A stretch of 64,000 nt of DNA, taken from assembly GCF_000470315.2 (NCBI RefSeq), contig NZ_CBRF02000019.1:1-64000 (forward strand), given 5' to 3'. Under the pieces are notes generated by a model. The model saw only the letters and a list, made by a program, of their open reading frames with translations. It did not search any database and was not told where the DNA came from. A program made the position numbers and the translations under genes. This DNA comes from Psychromonas sp. SP041. GTDB lineage: Bacteria; Pseudomonadota; Gammaproteobacteria; Enterobacterales; Psychromonadaceae. Positions 2,873 to 26,660 of the stretch are shown here, one piece after another (the stretch's first letter is position 1; each line of letters begins with the position of its first letter).

Positions 2873-4750
2873 ATGGAAGTTGAACTATTAGAAATTCAAG
2901 ATTTTATCAGCCAACACGCCCCTTTTGACCAACTTCCCGAAGAAGCATTAGCTGATGTTGTACGCAGTGTTGAAATTTCTTATTACCGTGCAGAAACCAA
3001 TATTATTGACTTTAAAGATGATATTAATGAGCTGTATATGATACGTAGTGGCGTAGTTGAAATTTATAGACGTAATGGCAACCTTTATAACCGATTAGAT
3101 CAAGGGAAACTCTTTGGTCAAATGGGTTTATTAACCAGTAATAAAGTCCGTTTTCCCGCTAAAACGACCAAAGATACCCTCTTATATTGCATTCCAGGTT
3201 CTGTTTTTTATGATTTATGTGATCGCTTTGAAAGCTTCGCTGATTTTGTAGAAGCGGAAGATAGCACTCGCTTAAAACAAGCAGTAGAAAATAAAAGCGA
3301 TAATGGTAATGCACTAACGACCTCTAAGGTGAAAACCTTATTAACCAGAGAGCCGCTGATTTTACCGAGTGATAGTAGTATTCAATCTGTTGCAAAAATA
3401 ATGGCAGAAGAAAGCCAATCAGCCGCGTTAATTAAAGACCCAAGTATTGATGACCAAGAAGGTTACAGTTTTGTTGGTTTAATTACTGAGCATGACCTTT
3501 GTGCAAAAGTAATTGCCTCTGGCTTAAGTGTTGAAACACCTGTATCCGAGGTGATGTCTACAGAGTTAATGTCATTAGATCATAACGCCTATATTTTTGA
3601 AGCAATGTTAATTATGTTACGCCATAACGTACATCACTTACCTATTATGAAAAATAAGCGCCCAATCGGCTTAATTGAAGTCTCTGACATTATCCGTTAT
3701 GAGTCTCAAAACAGTTTGTTATTTGTAAGCAGTATTTTTCAACAACAAAGCACTGAAGATCTAGCCCAACTATCTGTTCAATTAAAAGATTGTTTTGTAC
3801 GAATGGTTAATGAAGACGCCAATTCACACATGGTTGGACGAGCGATGTCTGAAATTGGACGTAGCTTTAAGCAGCGTTTATTAGAATTAGCAGAAGAACA
3901 GTTTGGACCACCGCCTATCCCATATTGTTTTTTAGCGTTGGGTTCAATGGCACGTGACGAGCAACTCTTAGTAACAGACCAAGATAATGGACTGATTTTA
4001 GATAATAGTTACGATGAAAAGTTACACGGCAAATACTTTGAAAAGCTATCTCACTTTGTATGTGACGGCTTAGATGCCTGTGGTTATGTTTATTGTACTG
4101 GCGAGATCATGGCGACCAATCCAGAGTATCGTAAAACGCAAACGCAATGGGAAACTTGTTTTACCGACTGGATAGATAATCCCAACCCTAAAGCATTATT
4201 AAACTGTAATATTTTCTTTGATTTAACCGGTGTGTATGGTCGAGTGAAATGGGCTGAACAGCTTAATGCCTTTATTTTACGTCGAGCAAAAAAGAACAAT
4301 CGATTCCTTGCTTGTATGGCGCGTAATGCGCTTAATAGAAAACCACCACTAGGTTTCTTTAAAGACTTTGTAATGGAAAATGATGGACGACATAACAACT
4401 CCATCAACCTAAAACGTCGTGGTACAGCCCCACTTGCTGACTTAATTCGAGTGCATGCTTTAGCGATCGGTTCTCAATCTCAAAACTCTTTTGATCGTTT
4501 AGAAGATATTATTGAAGCGGGTATATTGCCTAAATCTAAAGGTGCTGATTTAAGGCATGCCATGGAGTTAATCTCCTTAGTACGTTTACGTCATCAATCA
4601 TTGGATGTTGAGTCTGACATTGAGCCTGATAATAATATTGAGCCAGAGAATATGTCCGATCTTGAAAGACGTAATCTTAAGGACGCATTTTTAGTATTAA
4701 GTAATGCTCAAAACTTTTTAAAATATCGTTACACAGCAAACAAATTTTAA
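2873..4750 (+). CDS. cNMP-binding/CBS/DUF294 putative nucleotidyltransferase
   Basis: A 625-aa cytosolic signalling protein with four parts. A cyclic-nucleotide-binding-type domain (about 13-130) comes first, then a CBS pair (about 155-280). Next is a DUF294 nucleotidyltransferase-like domain (about 300-440) with GSMARDEQ at 357-364 and TDQDN at 368-372, resembling GlnD-type catalytic motifs. A helical DUF294 C-terminal domain (about 470-610) ends it. The reaction and target are unknown in this family. The start at 2873 (MEVELLEIQDF) is preferred over a TTG at 2825 that adds 16 unsupported residues. Nine bp separate it from a DEDDh exonuclease, so the two are probably cotranscribed. Confidence 0.85.
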   Translation: MEVELLEIQDFISQHAPFDQLPEEALADVVRSVEISYYRAETNIIDFKDDINELYMIRSGVVEIYRRNGNLYNRLDQGKLFGQMGLLTSNKVRFPAKTTKDTLLYCIPGSVFYDLCDRFESFADFVEAEDSTRLKQAVENKSDNGNALTTSKVKTLLTREPLILPSDSSIQSVAKIMAEESQSAALIKDPSIDDQEGYSFVGLITEHDLCAKVIASGLSVETPVSEVMSTELMSLDHNAYIFEAMLIMLRHNVHHLPIMKNKRPIGLIEVSDIIRYESQNSLLFVSSIFQQQSTEDLAQLSVQLKDCFVRMVNEDANSHMVGRAMSEIGRSFKQRLLELAEEQFGPPPIPYCFLALGSMARDEQLLVTDQDNGLILDNSYDEKLHGKYFEKLSHFVCDGLDACGYVYCTGEIMATNPEYRKTQTQWETCFTDWIDNPNPKALLNCNIFFDLTGVYGRVKWAEQLNAFILRRAKKNNRFLACMARNALNRKPPLGFFKDFVMENDGRHNNSINLKRRGTAPLADLIRVHALAIGSQSQNSFDRLEDIIEAGILPKSKGADLRHAMELISLVRLRHQSLDVESDIEPDNNIEPENMSDLERRNLKDAFLVLSNAQNFLKYRYTANKF

Positions 4751-4759
4751 GGTTTATAG

Positions 4760-5476
4760 ATGCATAATTTTACTAATAAAAAAATCTTAAATTGGAATGC
4801 TTATTTACAGTTACAGGCGCAAAACTGTAAAGATTCACGGCTCAAAACATTCTATAAGACAGGCACTTACCATGATGACACTTTGTTAAAAGACATCGAG
4901 TTTGTTGCTTTAGATTTTGAAACAACAGGTTTAGATCCTAAACAAAATAGTATTATTAGTATTGGTTTAGTGCCTTTTACCTTAAACAGAATATTCTGTA
5001 ACCAAGCAAAAAAATGGTACGTTAATCCACAAGATAAGCTTGAGGAGGAGTCAGTGATTATCCACGGTATCACTCATTCTGACTTGAAAGGTGCACCTGA
5101 TTTAAGACGTATTTTAAATCAGTTACTTGATGAATTAGCAGGTAAGATTGTGGTGGTACATTACCGTAATATTGAACGTGACTTTTTAGATTTAAACTTA
5201 CGCGCATTGATTGATGAAGGGATTATTTTCCCAGTGATTGATACGATGCAAATTGAAGCTGAAATTCAGAATAAACAAATACAAGGCTTTTTTAATTGGC
5301 TGAAAGGTAAAAGACCAGGTTCTATTCGTTTAGGAAATAGTCGTCTGCGTTATAACTTACCCGGTTATCAACCACATGATGCATTAACCGATGCGATTGC
5401 GACTGCAGAGTTATTACAAGCGCAAGTGAGTTATTATTACAGCCCTGAAACACCGATTAAAAACATCTGGTTATAA
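4760..5476 (+). CDS. DEDDh 3'-5' exonuclease (DnaQ-like)
   Basis: A 238-aa protein with an exonuclease domain from about residue 45. Exo I is LDFETTG (Asp52, Glu54), Exo II lies in VVHYRNIERDFLDL, and Exo III is HDALTDA (H-x4-D), which gives the DEDDh catalytic set. Proteins of this type remove 3' nucleotides from DNA or RNA. It is not the replicative epsilon subunit: it has a 45-residue N-terminal extension and no polymerase-binding tail, and it is not next to rnhA. It follows the DUF294 gene by 9 bp with an AAGG ribosome site overlapping that gene's stop. The pairing suggests a shared but unknown role. Confidence 0.85.
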   Translation: MHNFTNKKILNWNAYLQLQAQNCKDSRLKTFYKTGTYHDDTLLKDIEFVALDFETTGLDPKQNSIISIGLVPFTLNRIFCNQAKKWYVNPQDKLEEESVIIHGITHSDLKGAPDLRRILNQLLDELAGKIVVVHYRNIERDFLDLNLRALIDEGIIFPVIDTMQIEAEIQNKQIQGFFNWLKGKRPGSIRLGNSRLRYNLPGYQPHDALTDAIATAELLQAQVSYYYSPETPIKNIWL

Positions 5477-10667: not shown

Positions 10668-11681
10668 ATGGAATTATTATGTCCAGCAGGCAGTTTACCC
10701 GCATTAAAGACCGCCATTGATTGTGGTGCAGATGCTGTCTACGTAGGGTTAAAAGATGATACTAACGCACGCCATTTTGCAGGGTTAAACTTTAATGATA
10801 AAAAACTCGCAAAAGGCGCTCAATATGTACGTGATCACAATAAACATTTACACGTAGCCATTAATACATTCGCTCACCCAGGCGAAGAAAAGCGTTGGTT
10901 TAACGCCGTTGATAAATGTGTGGATTTAGGAGCGAATGCCGCCATTATTGCCGATATTGCGACACTTGATTATGCAGCTAATAAGTACCCTGATTTAGAA
11001 TTACATTTATCGGTTCAGGCTTCAGCAACAAACACTGCCGCTATCGATTTTTATCAACAAAACTTTAATGTAAAGCGTGTGGTATTGCCTCGGGTTTTGT
11101 CGCTTCATCAGGTAAAGCAATTAGCGCGTAATACGTCTATCGACTTAGAAGTCTTCGCTTTTGGCAGCCTGTGTATTATGGCTGAAGGCCGTTGTTATTT
11201 GTCGTCTTACTTTACGGGCGAGTCACCCAATACGGTTGGCGCTTGTTCGCCTGCTAAATATGTTCGTTGGCAAGAAACAGAGAAAGGCCTGGAGTCTCGT
11301 CTCAATGATATTTTAATTGATCGTTATCAAGAAAATGAAAAGGCTGGCTACCCTACTTTATGTAAAGGCAAATTTACCGTAGATAGCATTGATAATGAAG
11401 AGAAGATCCTTTACCACGCGCTTGAAGAACCCACCAGTTTGAATACCTTATCCATATTGCCTGAATTATTTATGGCCAACGTCAAATCAGTCAAAATTGA
11501 AGGCCGTCAACGCAGCCCTGCTTATGTTGAGCAAATTACTAAGGTATGGCGTGCGGCCATTGATAACTACAAACAATCACCAGCGGATTATAAAGTAGAA
11601 GCTGACTGGAATGCTGTTTTAGCCAATGTATCTGAAGGTAGCCAAACAACCTTAGGTGCTTATCATCGCGATTGGCAATAG
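10668..11681 (+). CDS. ubiU: Ubiquinone biosynthesis protein UbiU (U32 family)
   Basis: A 337-aa U32-family Fe-S protein that acts with UbiV in oxygen-independent hydroxylation of the ubiquinone ring. Four cysteines that hold the [4Fe-4S] cluster in E. coli UbiU (169, 176, 193, 232) are at exactly those positions here, in GSLCIMAEGRCYLSS, GACSPAKY and PTLCKGKF. The N-terminal LCPAGSLPALKTAIDCGADAV is typical of U32 proteins. GGAG lies upstream of the ATG. It is followed 36 bp later by ubiV and is divergent from ubiT. It is not a protease despite the historical family name. Confidence 0.96.
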   Translation: MELLCPAGSLPALKTAIDCGADAVYVGLKDDTNARHFAGLNFNDKKLAKGAQYVRDHNKHLHVAINTFAHPGEEKRWFNAVDKCVDLGANAAIIADIATLDYAANKYPDLELHLSVQASATNTAAIDFYQQNFNVKRVVLPRVLSLHQVKQLARNTSIDLEVFAFGSLCIMAEGRCYLSSYFTGESPNTVGACSPAKYVRWQETEKGLESRLNDILIDRYQENEKAGYPTLCKGKFTVDSIDNEEKILYHALEEPTSLNTLSILPELFMANVKSVKIEGRQRSPAYVEQITKVWRAAIDNYKQSPADYKVEADWNAVLANVSEGSQTTLGAYHRDWQ

Positions 11682-11717
11682 TCGCTCTATTTTAACGCAT
11701 CAAAGTTAGGATTAAAT

Positions 11718-12596
11718 ATGAAATTATCATTAGGGCCTTTATTATATTATTGGCCAAAACAAACAACCGAAGACTTTTATCAACAAGCCATGAGCAGCGA
11801 TGCTGATATTATTTATTTAGGCGAAACTGTCTGTAGCAAACGTCGTGAATTGAAAGCGCGTGATTGGATAAATTTAGCTAAAGAGCTCAATCACCAAGGC
11901 AAAGAGATTGTTTTATCGAGCATGGCGTTATTAGAAGCCCCATCAGAAATCAAAGTATTAAAACAACTTTGTGAAAATGGAGAAATGTCCGTAGAAGCCA
12001 ATGATATTGGCGGCATTCAATTGTTATCAGAAAAGAAAGTGCCTTTTGTTTGCGGCCCTGCCATCAATTGTTATAACGCTCATACGCTTAAGTTATTTGT
12101 AAACAAAGGCATGCATCGTTGGGTTATGCCCGTAGAACTTTCCCGAGACTGGTTACAAAAAGCATTAACAGATGCAGAAAAAATGGGCATAAGAGGTCAA
12201 TTCGAAGTAGAAGTTTTTGCACATGGTCATTTACCGTTAGCTTATTCTGCACGTTGCTTTACCGCAAGGTCTGAAAATAAAGCGAAAGATGATTGCGAAC
12301 TTTGTTGTATCAAATACCCACAGGGAAGAGCGACGAGTACTCAGGAAGGCCAACAAGTATTTGTACTGAACGGCATACAAACTCAATCTGGTTATTGTTA
12401 TAACTTACTCAATGATATTGAAAGTATGACAGGTCTCGTTGATGTCGCACGCGTTAGCCCAAGCTCTATGGATAGCTTAACCACATTACATCAGTTCAAA
12501 CAAAAGATATTAGGTGCAGAGCAATACGTTAAGCACGATAACTTACAATGTAATGGTTATTGGCATCAAATTGCAGGCCTTTCTTTACAAGGTTAA
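11718..12596 (+). CDS. ubiV: Ubiquinone biosynthesis protein UbiV (U32 family)
   Basis: A 292-aa U32 protein, partner of UbiU in the anaerobic ubiquinone hydroxylation complex. The cluster ligands known for E. coli UbiV (Cys39, 180, 193, 197) are all present at the same numbers: GETVCSKR, YSARCFTA and DDCELCCIKY. TTAGGA precedes the ATG. With ubiT and the nap/moa genes that follow, it fits quinone supply for nitrate respiration without oxygen. Confidence 0.96.
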   Translation: MKLSLGPLLYYWPKQTTEDFYQQAMSSDADIIYLGETVCSKRRELKARDWINLAKELNHQGKEIVLSSMALLEAPSEIKVLKQLCENGEMSVEANDIGGIQLLSEKKVPFVCGPAINCYNAHTLKLFVNKGMHRWVMPVELSRDWLQKALTDAEKMGIRGQFEVEVFAHGHLPLAYSARCFTARSENKAKDDCELCCIKYPQGRATSTQEGQQVFVLNGIQTQSGYCYNLLNDIESMTGLVDVARVSPSSMDSLTTLHQFKQKILGAEQYVKHDNLQCNGYWHQIAGLSLQG

Positions 12597-18353: not shown

Positions 18354-18932
18354 TTACTGCCAGCCTTCAATACCTTTCATATCAGGTAATTGATGTGCAA
18401 TCCCTTTATGGCAGTCAACACAGGTTTTATCACCAGAGGCAAGCGCTGTTGAATGTTGGCTTACACTGCGTTTACCTTGTTCACTGAAGTCCATATATTC
18501 AAATTGATGACAATTACGACATTCTTGTGAATTATTTTCTTTCATTCGCTGCCATTCACGGTTAGCTAAATGAGCACGACGTGCTTTAAATTTCTCATCA
18601 GTATCGATTGTCCCCATTGCAAATGCGAACAATTCTTTTGATGCTTGTACTTTACGCACAATTTTATCAGTCCATTTATGTGGCACATGGCAATCAGAAC
18701 AAATAGCACGCACTCCTGAACGATTAGAATAGTGAATGGTTTCACGAATTTCTTTTACGATAGGCGCATGACAACCTGAACAAAAGGCTTCTGTATTAGT
18801 TGCCTCCATTCCAGTATTAAACCCACCCCAAAAGATAATGCCTCCTAGAAAACCAATGACCAGGATAAAGCCAAACGAGGCTGTTGAAGGTGACTTCATG
18901 ATCACCCATAAACGCTTTAATAGTTTAAGCAT
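18354..18932 (-). CDS. napC: Cytochrome c-type protein NapC
   Basis: A 192-aa membrane-anchored tetraheme cytochrome of the NapC/NirT family. It oxidises quinol and passes electrons to NapB and NapA. One N-terminal membrane anchor is at about 20-38. Four CXXCH sites are at 51-55, 78-82, 138-142 and 171-175. Last gene of napFDABC. No napG or napH is present, so NapC is the visible quinol route. Confidence 0.96.
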   Translation of the reverse strand: MLKLLKRLWVIMKSPSTASFGFILVIGFLGGIIFWGGFNTGMEATNTEAFCSGCHAPIVKEIRETIHYSNRSGVRAICSDCHVPHKWTDKIVRKVQASKELFAFAMGTIDTDEKFKARRAHLANREWQRMKENNSQECRNCHQFEYMDFSEQGKRSVSQHSTALASGDKTCVDCHKGIAHQLPDMKGIEGWQ

Positions 18933-18947
18933 ATTTTGTGCTCCTGC

Positions 18948-19415
18948 TTAGCGTAACGAATCAACCGGGGTAAATGTATTATCTACTAACGGCTTAGCAT
19001 CTGCCTGCGTTACGTGACACTGTAAGCAGAAGTAACGACGAGGTGACACATCTGACAATGTTGTACCTTCACGTGTAATAAAGTGCGTGACGCTTACTTT
19101 CGTTGCCCCCATCGCACCGGCATTTTTAAAGCTATGGCATGACAAACATTTATTCGCGTTTAAATTCACCTGATAACCTCGAATAGAGTGAGGAATTAAA
19201 GGCGGTTGTTGCACATAATTTCGATCAATCAAGTGTTGTTCACGTGGTACTTTTTTTAAAGCTTCTGCTTTATTTACATCTGAAACTTCAACTAAACCAC
19301 GTAACGAGGGCACGCCACCATTATGAGTTAAAACAACTTCTTCTGTGCTAAACACAGCAGGCGAAGAAAATGCGATGACAGAGGCAGTGAAGATCGCTGT
19401 TAATATTTTTTTCAT
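18948..19415 (-). CDS. napB: Nitrate reductase cytochrome c-type subunit NapB
   Basis: A 155-aa periplasmic diheme cytochrome that passes electrons to NapA. A signal peptide covers about residues 1-23. CXXCH sites are at 90-94 (CLSCH) and 130-134 (CLQCH). The start at 19415 (MKKILTAIF) has GGAG at a good distance and begins a proper signal peptide; a frame to 19496 would add 27 residues in front of it. Confidence 0.95.
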   Translation of the reverse strand: MKKILTAIFTASVIAFSSPAVFSTEEVVLTHNGGVPSLRGLVEVSDVNKAEALKKVPREQHLIDRNYVQQPPLIPHSIRGYQVNLNANKCLSCHSFKNAGAMGATKVSVTHFITREGTTLSDVSPRRYFCLQCHVTQADAKPLVDNTFTPVDSLR

Positions 19416-19533
19416 ACTCTTTCTCCATTTTGTTACAACTGATATGAATAAGTTATCCGTTGTAACAAAGTGCGCTAAATTTAAATAAGTGCTCAATCAT
19501 ATAATTAAGCGGCATTATAAATACCGCATTTAA

Positions 19534-22029
19534 TTAGGCTTTTTTAGTGATTTTAACGGCACATTTTTTATAGTCAGTTTGTTTTGACAATGGATCAGTT
19601 GCATCCAGCGTTATCTTATTGACTAACTGCTTTGCATCAAACCAAGGCATAAACACTAAGCCTTTAGGCGGACGGTTACGACCACGCGTTTCAACACGAG
19701 ACGTTAGCTCACCGCGTCTTGACGCCATCACAATTTGATCCCCGCGACGTAAGCCACGTTGTTGTGCATCATCAGGATGCATAAATACAACTGCATCTGG
19801 AAATGCTTTATACAATTCAGGTACACGTCTTGTCATCGAGCCTGAATGCCAATGCTCAAGTACACGTCCAGTGCTTAACCATAAGTCATATTCTTCATCT
19901 GGAGATTCTGCAGGTGGCTCGTAAGGTAAAGCAAAAATAACCGCTTTTTTGTCTGCATGCCCATAAAACTGGTAGCCGGTTCCTTTTTCTACATAAGGGT
20001 CAGAACCTTCTCTGAAACGCCATTGTGTTTCTTTACCGTTCACCACAGGCCAACGTAAGCCACGTTCTTCATGATATCTATCATAAGGTGCGAGATCATG
20101 ACCATGGCCACGTCCAAAACTTGCATACTCTTCGAATAAACCTTTATGAACGTAAAAGCCAAAATGACGCGCATCATCATTTAGTTGATCATCTTTGATT
20201 TCATCTAAGCTAAATGCATCAACATTGCCATTTCGATACAGTACGTCGTACATGGTTTTGCCTTTAACTTCTGGCATTTTAGCGATCAAATCTTCGCTCC
20301 AAACCTCTTCAATCTTGAATCGTTTAGCAAACTCCATCATTTGCCATAAATCAGACTGCGCACCTTCAGGCGCTTTAACTTGTTGATGCCATACTTGTGT
20401 ACGACGTTCGGCATTACCGTAAGCCCCCTCTTTTTCAACCCACATTGCTGTCGGTAAAATAAGGTCACCGAGTTGCGCCGTGACGGTTGGATACGGGTCT
20501 GATACCACAATAAAGTTCTCTGGATTTCTGTAACCCGGAATAACTTCTTCATTAATGTTGGCAGCCGCTTGCACATTGTTATTACACATCACCCAGTAAG
20601 CATTCAATTTGCCATCTTTTAACATACGGTTTTGTAAAACGGCATGATATCCAGGTTTAGCAGGAATAGTCCCTTCCGGTAATTTCCATAATTTTTCAGC
20701 GATAGCACGATGTTTAGGATTATTAACCACTAAATCTGCAGGCAAACGATGCGAGAACGTACCCACTTCACGAGCAGTACCACAAGCAGATGGCTGACCC
20801 GTTAAAGAAAACGGACCTGAACCTGGTTTTGATATTTTGCCTGTTAATAAATGCACGTTGTACATTAAGTTATTAGCCCACACACCACGAGTGTGTTGGT
20901 TAAAGCCCATGGTCCAGTATGACGTTACTTTAATGTTTGGATCAGCGTATATTTTGGCAAGTTTAATCAGTTTATCAGCAGGTACGCCTGACATTTTTTC
21001 AGCATACTCGACATCAAATTCAGAAACATAATCAGCAAACTCTTCAAATGACATTGGCGTTGAAGCACCTGAGTCAGGATTTTTAGCCGCCGCTTGTAAA
21101 GGATTAGTAGGACGTAAGCCATAACCAATATCTGTAGTACCTTTACGGAAATTAATGTGTTTTTTGATAAAGTCTTTATCAACCGCATCATTTTTAATAA
21201 TGTAATTTGCAATAAAGTTAAGAATCGCTAAATCAGTTTGAGGCGTGAAAATCATCCCGTTATCTGCAAGCTCAAAAGAACGATGCGTATAGGTAGATAA
21301 TACATGCACGCGTACATCGGGATTACTTAAGCGACGATCGGTTAAGCGCGACCATAGAATTGGATGCATCTCTGCCATGTTTGATCCCCATAAGACAAAG
21401 GCATCAGCATTTTCAAGATCATCATAACAACCCATTGGCTCATCAATACCAAAGGTACGCATAAACCCACCTACGGCAGAGGCCATACAATGACGCGCAT
21501 TAGGATCTAAATTATTACTGCGAAAACCTGCTTTTAATAGTTTACTCGCAGCATAACCTTCCATCACAGTCCATTGACCAGAACCGAACATACCTACTGA
21601 CGTTGGCCCTTTCTTTTTTAAAGCGGCTTTAAATTTTTCAGCCATGATGTCAAAAGCTTCATCCCAAGAGATAGGTTCAAACTCGCCTTCTTTATCATAG
21701 ACGCCATTGGTCATTCTTAATAAGGGGGTTGTTAAGCGGTCTTTACCGTACATTATTTTAGAAAGAAAATAGCCTTTTACACAGTTAAGTCCTTTATTAA
21801 CAGGTGCTTCTGGATCACCTTGTGTAGCGACCACTCTGCCATTTTGTGTCCCTACTAGCACACCACAACCTGTACCACAAAATCGACATGGCGCTTTATC
21901 CCATTTGATTTTAGTAGCATCTTTACTGGCAATAATATTGCTCGCAGAGACAGGTAATGCAATGCCTGCTGCCGTTGCTGCAGCAGCCACTGCTTGTGCT
22001 TTCATAAAATCACGTCTGGTAAATTTCAT
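19534..22029 (-). CDS. napA: Periplasmic nitrate reductase catalytic subunit NapA
   Basis: An 831-aa molybdoenzyme that reduces nitrate to nitrite in the periplasm. A Tat signal (RRDFMKA, cleavage after about residue 29) sends it out folded. Cys48, 51, 55 and 83 bind the [4Fe-4S] cluster, Lys85 is the conserved electron-transfer lysine, and Cys181 (ARHCMAS) is the molybdenum ligand. The length is normal and the frame intact. Its ATG overlaps the napD stop (ATGA). Confidence 0.98.
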
Positions 22030-22301
22030 TGTGCTTCCTCGCTGTTATTTTGCGTAGATTGTTCAAACTCATGGTAAACAAGACTCGTATGTACAACGCC
22101 GTCTATGTCATTAATATTATCAATACACTTCATTATTTCTCGTTGGTTTGCAGCTTCTATCACTACAATGGCTTTACCTTTTTCAGTGACCGTGACCAAT
22201 TCCGCTTGTTGTGACTCTTCAATGCAAGTTTTAAGGTTTGATATATTTTCAGGCTTAACATGAACAATTAAGCTCGATATATGCAATTCATCTGTTCTCA
22301 T
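22026..22301 (-). CDS. napD: NapD, Tat chaperone for NapA
   Basis: A 91-aa cytoplasmic chaperone that binds the NapA signal peptide and holds back export until the cofactor is in. The NapD fold is recognisable from [15 protein letters not shown] near the N terminus and [14 protein letters not shown] near the C terminus. Coupled to napA by a 4-nt overlap. Confidence 0.92.
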
Positions 22302-22356
22302 TTACTTTCCTCATTGACTGTCTTCACCTTTCCCTTACCTAACTTTCTATTTTTAT

Positions 22357-22374
22357 TGCCATCATCTGATGGCA
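22357..22374 (-). other. Intercistronic hairpin between napF and napD
   Basis: TGCCATCA (22357-22364) and TGATGGCA (22367-22374) form a perfect 8-bp stem directly after the napF stop. No U tract follows on the minus strand, so it is more likely an mRNA-processing or stability element than a terminator. Confidence 0.5.
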
Positions 22375-22857
22375 TCATCTACTTTCTTCAATATTAATTG
22401 CGCTTGTTGGGCAAGGTGAAAAGCAGGCGCCACAGCCATTACACTTTTCTAAATCAATTTCTGGAACTGCATTAATGCCAATTTTAAAATGTAGCGCTTC
22501 TTCAGGACAACTTTCCCCACAACTTCTGCAATACACGTTTTCAAGTGCTAAACAGGCATCGCTAATCACTGCTTTTTTATGCCAAGCTTGCTCTGTTATT
22601 GGTGTAAAAATATCTTCTTGGCAACTTTCAGCACATTTGCCGCAAAAGGTGCACTCTCCCAATGAGAAATCAATCACAGGGAAACCACCGTCTCCTTTTA
22701 AGATAATATTTTCAGGGCAACTTGTTATGCAGTGTCCACATTGAGTACAGCTATCCAAAAATTGCTGTTTGTCATCAATCCACGGCATTAAATTATTAAT
22801 AATAAGCTCAGATTTACGTCGAAATAAATTGCGCTTTTGCATGTCAACCATAGGCAT
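22375..22857 (-). CDS. napF: Ferredoxin-type protein NapF
   Basis: A 160-aa cytoplasmic Fe-S protein implicated in loading or maturation of NapA. Cysteine clusters are CTQCGHCITSCP, CTFCGKCAESC, the partial set CRSCGESCP, and CNGCGACFSPCP. First gene of napFDABC, about 85 bp after a perfect FNR box. The start is not certain: ATGs at 22857, 22851 and 22842 are all possible and no strong ribosome site is visible. Confidence 0.93.
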   Translation of the reverse strand: MPMVDMQKRNLFRRKSELIINNLMPWIDDKQQFLDSCTQCGHCITSCPENIILKGDGGFPVIDFSLGECTFCGKCAESCQEDIFTPITEQAWHKKAVISDACLALENVYCRSCGESCPEEALHFKIGINAVPEIDLEKCNGCGACFSPCPTSAINIEESR

Positions 22858-22941: not shown

Positions 22942-22955
22942 TTGATTTGGATCAA
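22942..22955 (-). promoter_or_regulatory. FNR binding site upstream of napF
   Basis: TTGATTTGGATCAA matches the FNR consensus TTGAT-N4-ATCAA exactly. It lies 85 bp upstream of the napF start. It is palindromic but serves the minus-strand nap operon, since the other neighbour (moaA) ends here. It indicates anaerobic activation of nitrate reductase. Confidence 0.85.
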
Positions 22956-23018: not shown

Positions 23019-23996
23019 CTAACCGCCGATAGACGCTAAGTGAGGAGTACCGCCTGTTAACCCTAGATCAAGAAAGTGTGAGGATTTCTTTTCTTTTAAA
23101 GCGGCTAAAATAGTCGATTTTAACTCTGCTTTATCAGCACTATTTTGTAACAAGTGGCGAAGATCAACGCCATCTTCACCAAATAAACAAAGGTGTAAAC
23201 GTCCAACAGCAGAAACACGTAATCGATTACAATTATCACAAAAATCTTTACTGTAAGGCATTATTAAACCGATCTCTCCCAAATAATCAGGATGTGAAAA
23301 AACTTCCGCAGGGCCATCGTTAGCATGTCGCGTTTTTTGAACCCATTGTTGACTTAGTAAGACATCTTTAATGCTTTGACCAGAGAGATGATACCGATTA
23401 AAAAACTCTGCATTATCATCGGTCTGCATTAACTCAATAAATCTGAGTTGTATTGGTTGTTTTTTTATCCAAGTTAAAAATGTACTGAGGTCGTTATCAT
23501 TTAACCCTTTCATTAATACACTGTTCACTTTGACTTGTTCAAAGCCCGCAGTAATACAAGCATCAACACCTTCCATTACTTTATGGAAAATATTTTTACC
23601 CGTAATAAGATTAAAAGTATTGGCATCCAAGCTATCTATACTGACGTTAATGGCACTTAGTCCAGCTTCAAACCAATCTTCGGCATGTTTACTTAAATTA
23701 AACCCATTAGTGGTTGTCACCACCTTCTTAATACCATCAGTATTCGCTATCTGTTCGATGATATTAGGGAAGTCTTTACGTAAACTCGGTTCTCCACCTG
23801 TAATTCTCACTTTACTGGTGCCTAATTCTGCAAAAGCATTAATTAGGTTTTGTATTTCATTTTGTGACAAAAATTGCTTTTGATGAGTACGTTGGTAGCC
23901 ATCTGGCAAACAATAATTACATTTGAAATTACACTCATCAGTAATAGATAAGCGTAAGTATTCAAATTTTCGATGATACTTATCAACTAGTTGCAT
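23019..23996 (-). CDS. moaA: GTP 3',8-cyclase MoaA
   Basis: A 325-aa radical SAM enzyme that starts molybdopterin synthesis from GTP. The SAM cluster motif CNFKCNYC is at 22-29. A second cluster motif (CDNCNRLR, then CLFGE) is near the C terminus, which ends in the conserved Gly-Gly. The start at 23996 (MQLVDKYHRKF) has AAGGA seven bases upstream; a 12-residue longer form is less likely. Divergent from the sensor kinase gene. Confidence 0.95.
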   Translation of the reverse strand: MQLVDKYHRKFEYLRLSITDECNFKCNYCLPDGYQRTHQKQFLSQNEIQNLINAFAELGTSKVRITGGEPSLRKDFPNIIEQIANTDGIKKVVTTTNGFNLSKHAEDWFEAGLSAINVSIDSLDANTFNLITGKNIFHKVMEGVDACITAGFEQVKVNSVLMKGLNDNDLSTFLTWIKKQPIQLRFIELMQTDDNAEFFNRYHLSGQSIKDVLLSQQWVQKTRHANDGPAEVFSHPDYLGEIGLIMPYSKDFCDNCNRLRVSAVGRLHLCLFGEDGVDLRHLLQNSADKAELKSTILAALKEKKSSHFLDLGLTGGTPHLASIGG

Positions 23997-24071
23997 GGTC
24001 AGTTCCTTTCCAAACACGGGAGGCAAACCCATTTCTAAGTTTACCCTTCTTAACCATTTATCAGTTAAGCG

Positions 24072-24216: not shown

Positions 24217-25917
24217 ATGAAGATTAATCTACTATTTCATTCACTTTCTATTACGAAAGTGATTACAACGATCGCTTTACTGATATTAATCATATCAGGA
24301 TCTCATATTTTTATTTTCCTTACGACAACGCATAGCCAAAATATTAATAGGGAAGCAATTAAAAATTTGGTTATTCTCAAACATGAAACCCAAAACTTCA
24401 TCAACATGAAGAAAGTCGATCGCAATGACATCGTTACTTCGTTTAATAAGTTCTCACCACGGCTTGCGAATAAGTTACTCGAAAAGAAATTTTTTGATGT
24501 TACTCATATTTCCACGGCAAACACAGAGCTAAAGTTTCAATTATTAACACTACAAGAAAAATTCAGTGAACTCTCAGATGCTAAACTAGACATACAACTA
24601 GAAAATTTAGTCGATAACATTATGTTGACGGTGAAACAGTATGACCTCCTGTTAGAAAAAGAAGCGTCGGTTATCTTCATTTCTCAAATAGTCGTCTTTT
24701 TATTTATATTACTTATTTCATTATTTCTATTAGTTTATTGCCGTCGATACATAGTCACACCACTTAATCAATTAGAAGAAAATGTTCTGTCAATTTCTAA
24801 CCATCATTTTAATGTTGAGTTTTTAGATCATTCAAACGAAATTGGTGTACTTTCAACGGGTTTAAAAAGCATGTCAGCAGAGCTTGAGTCTTTAATTGCG
24901 GCCATGCAAAAGAAAGTGTTCGATAAAAAAACTGAATTAGAAAGTGCCAATGAAAGTATTCAATTCTTATTCACTATTTCTCAAAAGCTAAGTACGGTTA
25001 AATTAACTCACCCTATTATTATTGAAGCGTTAAACGCATTAGCAAAACAAACTAACCTGACAAAATTATGTTTAGAACTTGTAAACGGTGTGCAGATAGA
25101 CAGTGACTATGGCTGTGCAACTGAAAATCAAAATAACAAACGTATCCCTATTATTATTAATGGCGAACCTTATGGTTATTTAAACTATATTCAAGCAATC
25201 GCAACAGATGAAAACACATCTATCATCGTTAGCTTTAGCAGCTTGTTAGCCCGTGCTTTATATCAAGAAGAATACAGCTTACAAGAACAAAAACTATTAT
25301 TAATGGATGAGCGAGGTGTTATTGCTCGTGAGCTCCATGACTCTATCGCACAGGCCCTTTCATTCCTTAAAATACAATGTACGGTATTAAATCGTCAAAT
25401 TGATTCAAATGCCGACAGTGAACAAGTTAAAAGCTCAGTAGGTAATATTAAAGAAGCGGTTACCGATGCTTATGTGCAACTTCGTTCATTACTTTCTACT
25501 TTCAGATTAAACATCAGTGTTTCTGACTTTAAAGAAGCGGTGTTAATCATGACGTCTCAATTACAAAAACAAACAGCAGCAAAAATCCAATTAGGATTAT
25601 TTGAATCCAACTTCCAAACCCATGCCAATCAACATATACATTTATTACAAATAATAAGAGAAGCCATAATAAATGCGATGAAACATGCAAATTGTGACAA
25701 CATTGTTATTAATTGTGTGGTTATTGACCAAAAAATTGCAACACAAAAGGTTATTATTACTATTTGTGACGATGGTGTAGGAATAGAAGAAAAACCAGGT
25801 AAAGATAACCATTATGGAATAGAAATCATGAACCAAAGAGCAAATGAGCTCAATGGTATATTAGAAATCAAAAACTTACCCGTCGGCACAGAAATAAAAC
25901 TTATATTTGAAATTTAG
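24217..25917 (+). CDS. narQ: NarQ-like nitrate/nitrite sensor histidine kinase
   Basis: A 566-aa membrane kinase, the same length as E. coli NarQ. Membrane segments at about 14-36 and 154-175 flank a periplasmic domain. HAMP (about 176-230), a GAF-like linker and a HisKA_3 domain follow, with the phospho-acceptor His374 in ARELHDSIAQAL, then an ATPase domain (REAIINAMKHA, CDDGVGI). The narP-like gene is 107 bp downstream. The P-box that binds nitrate is poorly conserved: the region at 41-59 (NINREAIKNLVILK) has Asn50 where NarQ has the nitrate-binding Arg. The input signal may therefore differ. The symbol is by context and architecture. Confidence 0.8.
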   Translation: MKINLLFHSLSITKVITTIALLILIISGSHIFIFLTTTHSQNINREAIKNLVILKHETQNFINMKKVDRNDIVTSFNKFSPRLANKLLEKKFFDVTHISTANTELKFQLLTLQEKFSELSDAKLDIQLENLVDNIMLTVKQYDLLLEKEASVIFISQIVVFLFILLISLFLLVYCRRYIVTPLNQLEENVLSISNHHFNVEFLDHSNEIGVLSTGLKSMSAELESLIAAMQKKVFDKKTELESANESIQFLFTISQKLSTVKLTHPIIIEALNALAKQTNLTKLCLELVNGVQIDSDYGCATENQNNKRIPIIINGEPYGYLNYIQAIATDENTSIIVSFSSLLARALYQEEYSLQEQKLLLMDERGVIARELHDSIAQALSFLKIQCTVLNRQIDSNADSEQVKSSVGNIKEAVTDAYVQLRSLLSTFRLNISVSDFKEAVLIMTSQLQKQTAAKIQLGLFESNFQTHANQHIHLLQIIREAIINAMKHANCDNIVINCVVIDQKIATQKVIITICDDGVGIEEKPGKDNHYGIEIMNQRANELNGILEIKNLPVGTEIKLIFEI

Positions 25918-26024: not shown

Positions 26025-26660
26025 ATGAGCAATGTATCTACCGTTATTGTTGTTGATGACCATCCCCTTATGCGCAAAGGCATTACACAACTATTAAGTA
26101 TTGACCCGAACTTTGTTGTTATCGACGAAGCGACCAATGGTATCGAAGCTGTCAGCATGGTAAAGAAACAACACCCTGATATGGTGTTGTTAGATTTAAA
26201 CATGAAAGCGGTTTCCGGTTTAGAAACGCTTAAAGCATTACGAAATGATGGTATCACCAGTAAAATTGTTATTTTAACGGTATCTGATGCTAAACAAGAT
26301 GTTATTTCATTAATCAACCAAGGGGCTGACGGTTACTTATTAAAAGATACCGATCCAGAAATCTTATTGGATAGCTTACACCGTATCCAACAAGGTAAAT
26401 TAGTGGTGAGTGAAGGTTTAACACAATATTTAGATTGTTTAGATCAAGAAAACAACATTAGAGAGAAAATCGCGACATTAACACGCCGTGAAAATCAAAT
26501 CATGGAAGAAATTTCACGAGGATTAAGTAACAAAGAAATTTCTGAAAATCTTAATATTTCAGAAGGGACTGTAAAAGTACACGTTAAAAGCTTACTTAAA
26601 AAATTAGCAATTAAGTCTCGTGTTGAAGCAGCAGTATTATTCTTAGAGCAACCCAAGTAA
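26025..26660 (+). CDS. narP: NarP/NarL family response regulator
   Basis: A 211-aa response regulator with a receiver domain (acidic pair Asp11/Asp12, phospho-acceptor Asp57 in LLDLNM, Lys in LLKD) and a LuxR-type helix-turn-helix (about 148-205, with LTRRENQIM and GLSNKEISENLNISEGTVKV). AAAGGA lies upstream of the ATG. Paired with the kinase gene just upstream. It probably controls nap and related anaerobic genes, but I could not find convincing 7-2-7 sites. Confidence 0.9.
   Translation: MSNVSTVIVVDDHPLMRKGITQLLSIDPNFVVIDEATNGIEAVSMVKKQHPDMVLLDLNMKAVSGLETLKALRNDGITSKIVILTVSDAKQDVISLINQGADGYLLKDTDPEILLDSLHRIQQGKLVVSEGLTQYLDCLDQENNIREKIATLTRRENQIMEEISRGLSNKEISENLNISEGTVKVHVKSLLKKLAIKSRVEAAVLFLEQPK

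Follow-up and report, generated by a model that had tools for sequence, protein, structure and literature searches.

A nap-linked NarQ orthologue of Psychromonas with an eroded P-box is probably cut loose from nitrate

The window (the whole 64,000-nt stretch of Psychromonas sp. SP041 DNA analyzed here) contains a narQ-like sensor kinase gene, with moaA and napFDABC upstream in divergent orientation and a NarP/NarL-type regulator gene downstream. These are the surroundings of a nitrate sensor, and annotation by overall similarity would still call the Psychromonas protein one. Does this kinase in fact read nitrate, given the state of its nitrate-binding motif? No literature on Psychromonas NarQ was found in a search that most subscription papers lay outside of, and none of the titles on Psychromonas nitrate reductase or napA concerned regulation. 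Among the matches listed, PMC8199190 and PMC1802743 are the close works on NarQ and its P-box. Genomes, loci and families are referred to by our own handles (G, L and f numbers) where they must be told apart.

Descent and surroundings of the kinase gene

The open reading frame is intact over exactly the span given in Table 1, and its product aligns contiguously with the curated NarQ profile NF008184 (385.9 bits, residues 11-565 on positions 6-558 of 565), a score that does not reach the profile's membership cut-off of 553 bits. The next-best curated profile is NarX, at 205.3 bits. HisKA_3 (E 1.1e-16) and HATPase_c exceed their Pfam cut-offs, HAMP falls under its own (20.4 vs 25), and the PilJ sensor family (PF13675) gives no Pfam match in the protein at E<=1. 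Within its own genome the kinase is the sole match to itself at E<=1e-5, and its five relatives at 70-96% identity are all from Psychromonas. Of 24 Psychromonas genomes, 20 have a narQ match, which is full length in 16; NF008184 is matched at E<=1e-45 in 19 of the 24 and above 553 bits in none. The Psychromonas sequences are monophyletic with support 100, the window belonging to one of two clades.

The protein is like E. coli NarQ (PDB 5jeq, 5iji, 6yue) in length, domain order and the H, N, D and G boxes. The N, D and G boxes are conserved within the genus, and the H-box with its D-x-x-x-Q motif is invariant in the 16 full-length proteins. The sensor-TM-HAMP fold of NarQ was recovered by structure comparison (Foldseek E 7.5e-7; VIA Z 16.8 to NarQ structures, with 5jeq matched over 222 residues at rmsd 3.5 and 20% identity), the alignment behind the model having itself held canonical NarQs. 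The GAF-like domain was modeled at pLDDT 83.8, and its top PDB matches include GAF domains. Structure alignments used 69/96 sequences.

The partner regulator scores 253.4 bits with NF007935 (NarL; cut-off 250) and 252.6 bits with NF007708 (NarP; cut-off 343). The order of narQ with narP, moaA and nap brings together the same neighbours in several other families. The preliminary description had called the length, domain order and nap context NarQ-like, which the end-to-end profile alignment and the adjoining napFDABC, moaA and NarL/NarP-type regulator genes bear out. Judged from sequence, the gene descends from NarQ as an orthologue, but its product lacks the motif that defines the nitrate-sensing class.

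Table 1. Positions of the kinase gene, its parts and the neighbouring features in the window
Feature	Position	Strand	Basis
napFDABC, periplasmic nitrate reductase operon	18354-22857	-	Pfam
napC	18354-18932	-	Pfam
napB	18948-19496	-	Pfam
napA	19534-22029	-	Pfam; TIGR01706, 1595 bits
napD	22026-22301	-	Pfam
napF	22375-22857	-	ferredoxin domains and position
Perfect FNR-type palindrome upstream of napF	22942-22955	-	pattern search
moaA, between nap and narQ	23019-24032	-	Pfam
narQ-like sensor histidine kinase gene, 566 aa	24217-25917	+	intact ORF, NF008184 profile match
Periplasmic sensor (four-helix bundle, residues 40-149), the part evolving fastest	24334-24663	+	joint alignment, rates, AlphaFold model
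Eroded P-box, residues 44-61 (E. coli NarQ 39-56)	24346-24399	+	register tests, conservation
Lys55 codon, counterpart of nitrate-binding Arg50	24379-24381	+	register tests, conservation
Reduced GAF-like domain, residues 248-364	24958-25308	+	alignment, AlphaFold model
H-box IARELHDSIAQ, His374 and D-x-x-x-Q motif, identical in 16/16	25321-25353	+	alignment, HisKA_3
NarP/NarL-type response regulator, 211 aa, partner gene	26025-26660	+	curated profiles, synteny

The P-box and the sensor domain

The preliminary description placed the AIN of NarQ on the NIN of the Psychromonas protein and read Arg50 as Asn50. That register (offset 0) averaged -59.0 bits when the TM1-H1 segment was scored against a canonical NarQ profile, compared with -14.4 for an offset of +5, which was the best of the gapless offsets tried for all 16 Psychromonas proteins; the window protein has five extra residues ahead of the P-box relative to E. 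coli NarQ. The +5 register was repeated by HMM alignment (gap-free up to H1 in 15 of 16) and by hhalign (probability 99.3 global, 98.8 local). The structural alignment sets model residue 6 on NarQ residue 1, which is not independent because the alignment behind the model included NarQs. The earlier register is thus overturned by all four comparisons, and with the offset of +5 Arg50 corresponds to Lys55 and Gly47 to Val52.

In this register the G-x-x-R of nitrate/nitrite-sensing histidine kinases reads V-x-x-K in the window. Position 55 is Lys in 13 and Arg in 3 of the 16 full-length proteins, the glycine equivalent to Gly47 is lost in 15 (kept only in G008), and position 51 carries Leu throughout the 16, in place of the Ala or Ser of canonical NarQ. 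The window protein also has Met136 at the site of Asp133, the partner of Arg50 in NarQ (PMC7247690); it further differs from E. coli NarQ in scoring under the curated NarQ cut-off (386 vs 553 bits). The set of 16 omits G018 and G020 (contig ends), G009 (truncated) and G022 (frameshifted); the G020 box is readable and by eye ends in Lys. Among 80 canonical NarQs drawn from ten further families in the order, Gly47 and Arg50 are each kept in 79, a set biased towards resemblance to the query because it was taken from the better-scoring matches among the 173 non-Psychromonas genomes with a match. Recurrence of the erosion in 16 genomes, against 79 of 80 intact elsewhere, argues that it is neither chance nor a sequencing slip, and its presence in both clades places the loss of the pocket at the base of the genus or close to it. 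The single exception among the 80, G077 (family f12, L069), has Asn for Gly47 and Ala for Arg50 and represents an independent loss of the P-box; napA was not found in this genome, and the three other f12 genomes have both napA and the P-box. Unlike Psychromonas it is a single lineage, with no Cys at 285 or 300.

The claim that the canonical nitrate pocket is gone therefore holds: the GSLRM core is absent from the window protein and the glycine is now Val52. The detail given for the arginine site does not hold, since proper alignment puts not Asn but a conserved Lys or Arg there, in the first periplasmic helix, an outcome that goes part of the way towards the refutation which the preliminary description had set for itself. 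A survey of 6121 nitrate-sensing kinases describes Gly and Arg at 100% (PMC8199190). As its selection is described, by the sensor domain IPR029095, NarQs of the Psychromonas type would have been invisible to it because that domain is what they have lost.

A ligand-insensitive NarQ with Lys is already known, and the present case would be a genus-wide variant of it. Arg-to-Lys is reported to make NarX ligand-insensitive and to lock it as a phosphatase (PMC7247690), and R54K and R54S in NarX as well as P-box changes in E. coli NarQ are reported as ligand-insensitive (PMC7247690, PMC1802743). E. coli NarQ with P-box changes that include Arg-to-Lys is described as locked off, and gonococcal NarQ with its Lys as locked on (PMC1802743). 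The protein of Neisseria gonorrhoeae is alike in having a natural Lys at the Arg54/Arg50 site and a NarP partner, and is itself insensitive to nitrate and nitrite; ten of the 18 residues of its P-box match E. coli NarQ or NarX (PMC1802743), and by eye the Psychromonas box has fewer E. coli matches than that. The E. coli mutants NarX R54K/R54S and NarQ R50K/R50S likewise lack the nitrate-coordinating arginine (PMC7247690); these are single changes made in the laboratory, whereas in Psychromonas the glycine and the packing have also changed, and across a genus. From these parallels we infer that Psychromonas NarQ is a nitrate-blind kinase, for which being on, off or gated elsewhere are all possible.

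The sensor domain is the least conserved part of the 16 proteins (mean identity 0.316). Partition rates from IQ-TREE were 2.26 for the sensor, 0.84 for the GAF-like domain and 0.53 for the catalytic part, and the resulting sensor/catalytic ratio of 4.2 compares with 0.66 to 2.6 in eight control clades, of which the top two are f2, with a very short tree, and f10, with four sequences (clade tests used 76 of the 80 canonical NarQs). The pooled Psychromonas omega was 0.109 in the sensor versus 0.041 in the kinase (ratio 2.7), against 0.167/0.210, 0.049/0.060 and 0.095/0.071 in three control families (ratios 0.8 to 1.3). In this test dS was near saturation in several pairs, two of the five Psychromonas sensor values were not computable, and control families f21 and f18 gave zero usable dN/dS pairs. 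Since a sensor omega of 0.109 is well below 1, the domain is relaxed and not neutral or free to drift.

Promoter and gene content around nap

We take the FNR-type pattern to be TTGAT-N4-ATCAA and the NarP-type pattern to be a 7-2-7 site. A perfect FNR-type palindrome lies upstream of napF in 19 of 20 Psychromonas promoters and in 0 of 15 outgroup promoters; a 7-2-7 site at the usual distance (25-30 bp downstream from where the FNR site starts; <=3 mismatches) is present in 4 of the 20 (G002, G007, G008, G022) and in 11 of the 15, compared with 2-3% in shuffles, the counts and their Fisher p-values ignoring shared ancestry. The comparison covers 20 of the 21 napA-bearing Psychromonas genomes (G018, with napA pieces on other contigs, was omitted) and 15 of 20 outgroup loci (five had no napF match). 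No 7-2-7 site was found at the usual spacing in the napF promoter of the window, nor in any of the eight nap-bearing genomes of its clade. Decoupling from NarP is incomplete in the genus, since four genomes keep a NarP-like nap site. Nap of Shewanella oneidensis is described as governed by Crp and not Fnr (PMC3519889), so some of the FNR-like outgroup sites may serve Crp. The chance expectation for FNR-type palindromes is 0.29 per 64 kb; a second perfect one in the window (11317-11330) lies within the ORF at 10668-11681.

Gene content also varies along the genus. NapA is present in 21 of the 24 genomes and nap adjoins narQ in most genomes looked at; nrfA was found in two of the 24 and narG in none. 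In G013 and G021, moaA, narQ and narP are kept and nap is missing from its place between mobA and moaA, and in G001 narQ-narP is present and napA was not found, making three genomes that keep narQ-narP with nap, narG and nrfA all not found. Conversely, napA is present and narQ was not found in G005, G012, G015 and G019: at the locus, both narQ and narP are missing from the first two, G015 retains narP alone of the pair, and the G019 contig ends ahead of the narQ place. Between G013 and G021, NarP has an omega of 0.010 and the kinase part of NarQ one of 0.022, beside 0.022 for DinG, 0.030 for MoaA and 0.041 for CysS. If nap was lost before these two genomes split, as parsimony suggests, such low values mean that narQ-narP has been under strong selection without all three respiratory reductases; the mobA-moaA junctions of G013 and G021 differ in sequence, so a shared loss is assumed.

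A search for the output regulon with the strict 7-2-7 pattern gave 28 sites in the 24 Psychromonas genomes and 36 for a reversed control pattern, 14 of the latter in one genome, and 11 against 26 in 25 genomes of a canonical control genus. The pattern thus carried no regulon signal in Psychromonas, nor in the canonical genus. No shared ORF was found next to NarP sites at the 18 loci examined, and the moaA-narQ, narQ-narP and narP-dinG gaps of 16 genomes held no NarP site with under two mismatches. One strict site is common to the nap-less sisters G013 and G021 (near position 1500 of L184 and L190), in what is by eye a homologous stretch between metA-like and metH-like genes.

Two further features were seen at these loci. 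Repeats of a unit of about 20 bases (around CTAAAAAACAGATAA) lie by eye between moaA and napF in G005 and G012 (L094 about 11400-11800, L095 about 4250-4770), which are the two genomes without narQ and narP at the locus. In the G015 narP (L096, 5930-6562), LLKG replaces an otherwise conserved LLKD, as if constraint were easing.

What the kinase may be kept for

Promoter and gene content have shifted along with the P-box, and the surroundings are more telling than the motif. Taken together, the evidence makes it somewhat probable that this is a nitrate-blind NarQ orthologue, decoupled from nap in the window's clade and kept for another job. The nitrate pocket would have been lost at or near the base of the genus, leaving a protein that is blind to nitrate and whose catalytic half may keep its kinase and phosphatase activities towards NarP. 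For nap of the window's clade, expression would have been handed to FNR alone as the FNR site was perfected and the NarP site disappeared, and NarQ-NarP would be retained for a target outside nitrate respiration. Its present input may be a fixed balance of kinase and phosphatase or a signal in the cytoplasmic part. In the AlphaFold model, a monomer prediction, TM1 and H1 form one continuous helix, the state described for ligand-free NarQ (PMC7247690).

The more specific proposal, in which NarQ-NarP was rewired into a nitrate-independent regulator with its input in the cysteine-bearing GAF-like/kinase half while nap passed to the perfected FNR site, is doubtful as a whole.

That the kinase senses a different ligand, as the preliminary description suggested, is retained as an unlikely rival. 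The sensor would have been retuned by repacking of H1 (Leu51, Lys55) on H4 (Tyr142, Leu145), with the basic residue binding another anion; a basic residue at position 55 in 16 of 16 could indeed mean that an anion is still bound. Six columns of this otherwise fast domain (Lys/Arg55, Leu51, Leu105, Leu128, Tyr142 and Leu145), several of them unlike canonical NarQ, are conserved in all 16 proteins, and the pooled sensor omega still reflects purifying selection. However, the sensor remains the least conserved part, and the majority of those conserved columns are hydrophobic core, which the fold alone would need. Moreover, the narQ of G009 is missing about the first 125 residues, which comprise TM1 and the greater part of the sensor. 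No trace of this N-terminus was found at the locus, in the stretch from moaA to the kinase, while the frame is open from TM2 through to the C-terminus and shares 73% identity with G008. Because one species keeps its kinase in this form and the sensor is the fastest-evolving part, a genus-wide new periplasmic ligand is not the leading reading.

With its input moved to the cytoplasm, the kinase might be a redox, oxygen or NO sensor made by cysteines 285, 300, 388, 493 and 500 of the GAF-like, DHp and catalytic domains, which we regard as distinctly unlikely. A redox function of cysteines in NarQ has been proposed (PMC8199190). The 16 Psychromonas proteins share all five of these, compared with zero to three invariant cysteines in the eight control clades, among them one, zero and zero in f21, f6 and f18, which have a similar mean identity; of 79 canonical NarQs, 1 has Cys285 and 6 have Cys300, both invariant in the genus. 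Against this, Cys388 is found in all four f12 NarQs, Cys493 in four canonical NarQs and Cys500 in 69 of 79, and the GAF/catalytic rate ratio of 1.56 is within the control range of 0.78 to 2.36. Since the rate of the GAF-like domain is not unusual, cytoplasmic input was ranked as a rival and not a finding. Raw identities (0.674 in Psychromonas vs 0.323 in 79 canonical NarQs) would make the GAF-like domain appear newly constrained, an idea that was dropped because the partition rates disagree; the contrast is misleading since the canonical set spans many families. The central cysteine cluster of NarX, compared for E. coli NarX only, is not reproduced, as the window protein lacks the insert with most of the cluster; in the alignment its Cys300 falls no more than two residues from the first cluster cysteine.

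The suggestion that nitrate is bound in another way is disfavoured because Gly47 is lost and Arg-to-Lys makes NarX and NarQ insensitive. That nitrate or nitrite is still sensed by a weakened pocket, with Lys or Arg at position 55, is very unlikely. In its favour, the basic residue is present in 16 of 16, nap is still next door in most genomes looked at, and NasR is reported to tolerate the swap of one glycine (PMC8199190). Against it, 15 of 16 proteins have lost Gly47, a Lys here goes with ligand insensitivity in NarX, NarQ and the gonococcal protein (PMC7247690, PMC1802743), and the nap-less G013 and G021 are two of the three Arg carriers.

A decaying pseudo-system without function is hardly credible given 16 intact full-length copies with intact catalytic motifs and an omega of 0.010 to 0.022 in two nap-less genomes, even with narQ damaged in G022 and G009, narQ absent and narP kept in G015, and both absent in G005 and G012. 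In G022, a single-contig genome, narQ (L102, 7756-9457) is two overlapping ORFs in different frames, from either decay or sequencing error. Omega between G009 and G008 was 0.117 for TM2-kinase and 0.060 for NarP, less constrained than in the nap-less pair; the G009 copy, in a small genome 79% complete, may be decaying rather than a sensor-less working kinase, and its raised omega slightly lowers confidence in the nitrate-blind reading.

We conclude that in Psychromonas the NarQ-NarP switch is probably uncoupled from nitrate. The genus forms a natural series, with an eroded box, a missing sensor, a missing kinase and nap lost or kept, and with the intact box outside it. This series lets one ask how a sensor kinase can persist once its ligand is lost, and in what way promoters make up for it.

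PF13675 is found in 7 of the 24 Psychromonas genomes. In the window's own genome a PilJ-domain protein (L047, G000:C44), by eye a diguanylate cyclase, carries an intact INIAGRQRMLSQ box, and the close relative G016 has a protein of the same type (L048); these proteins are a possible separate nitrate-type input.
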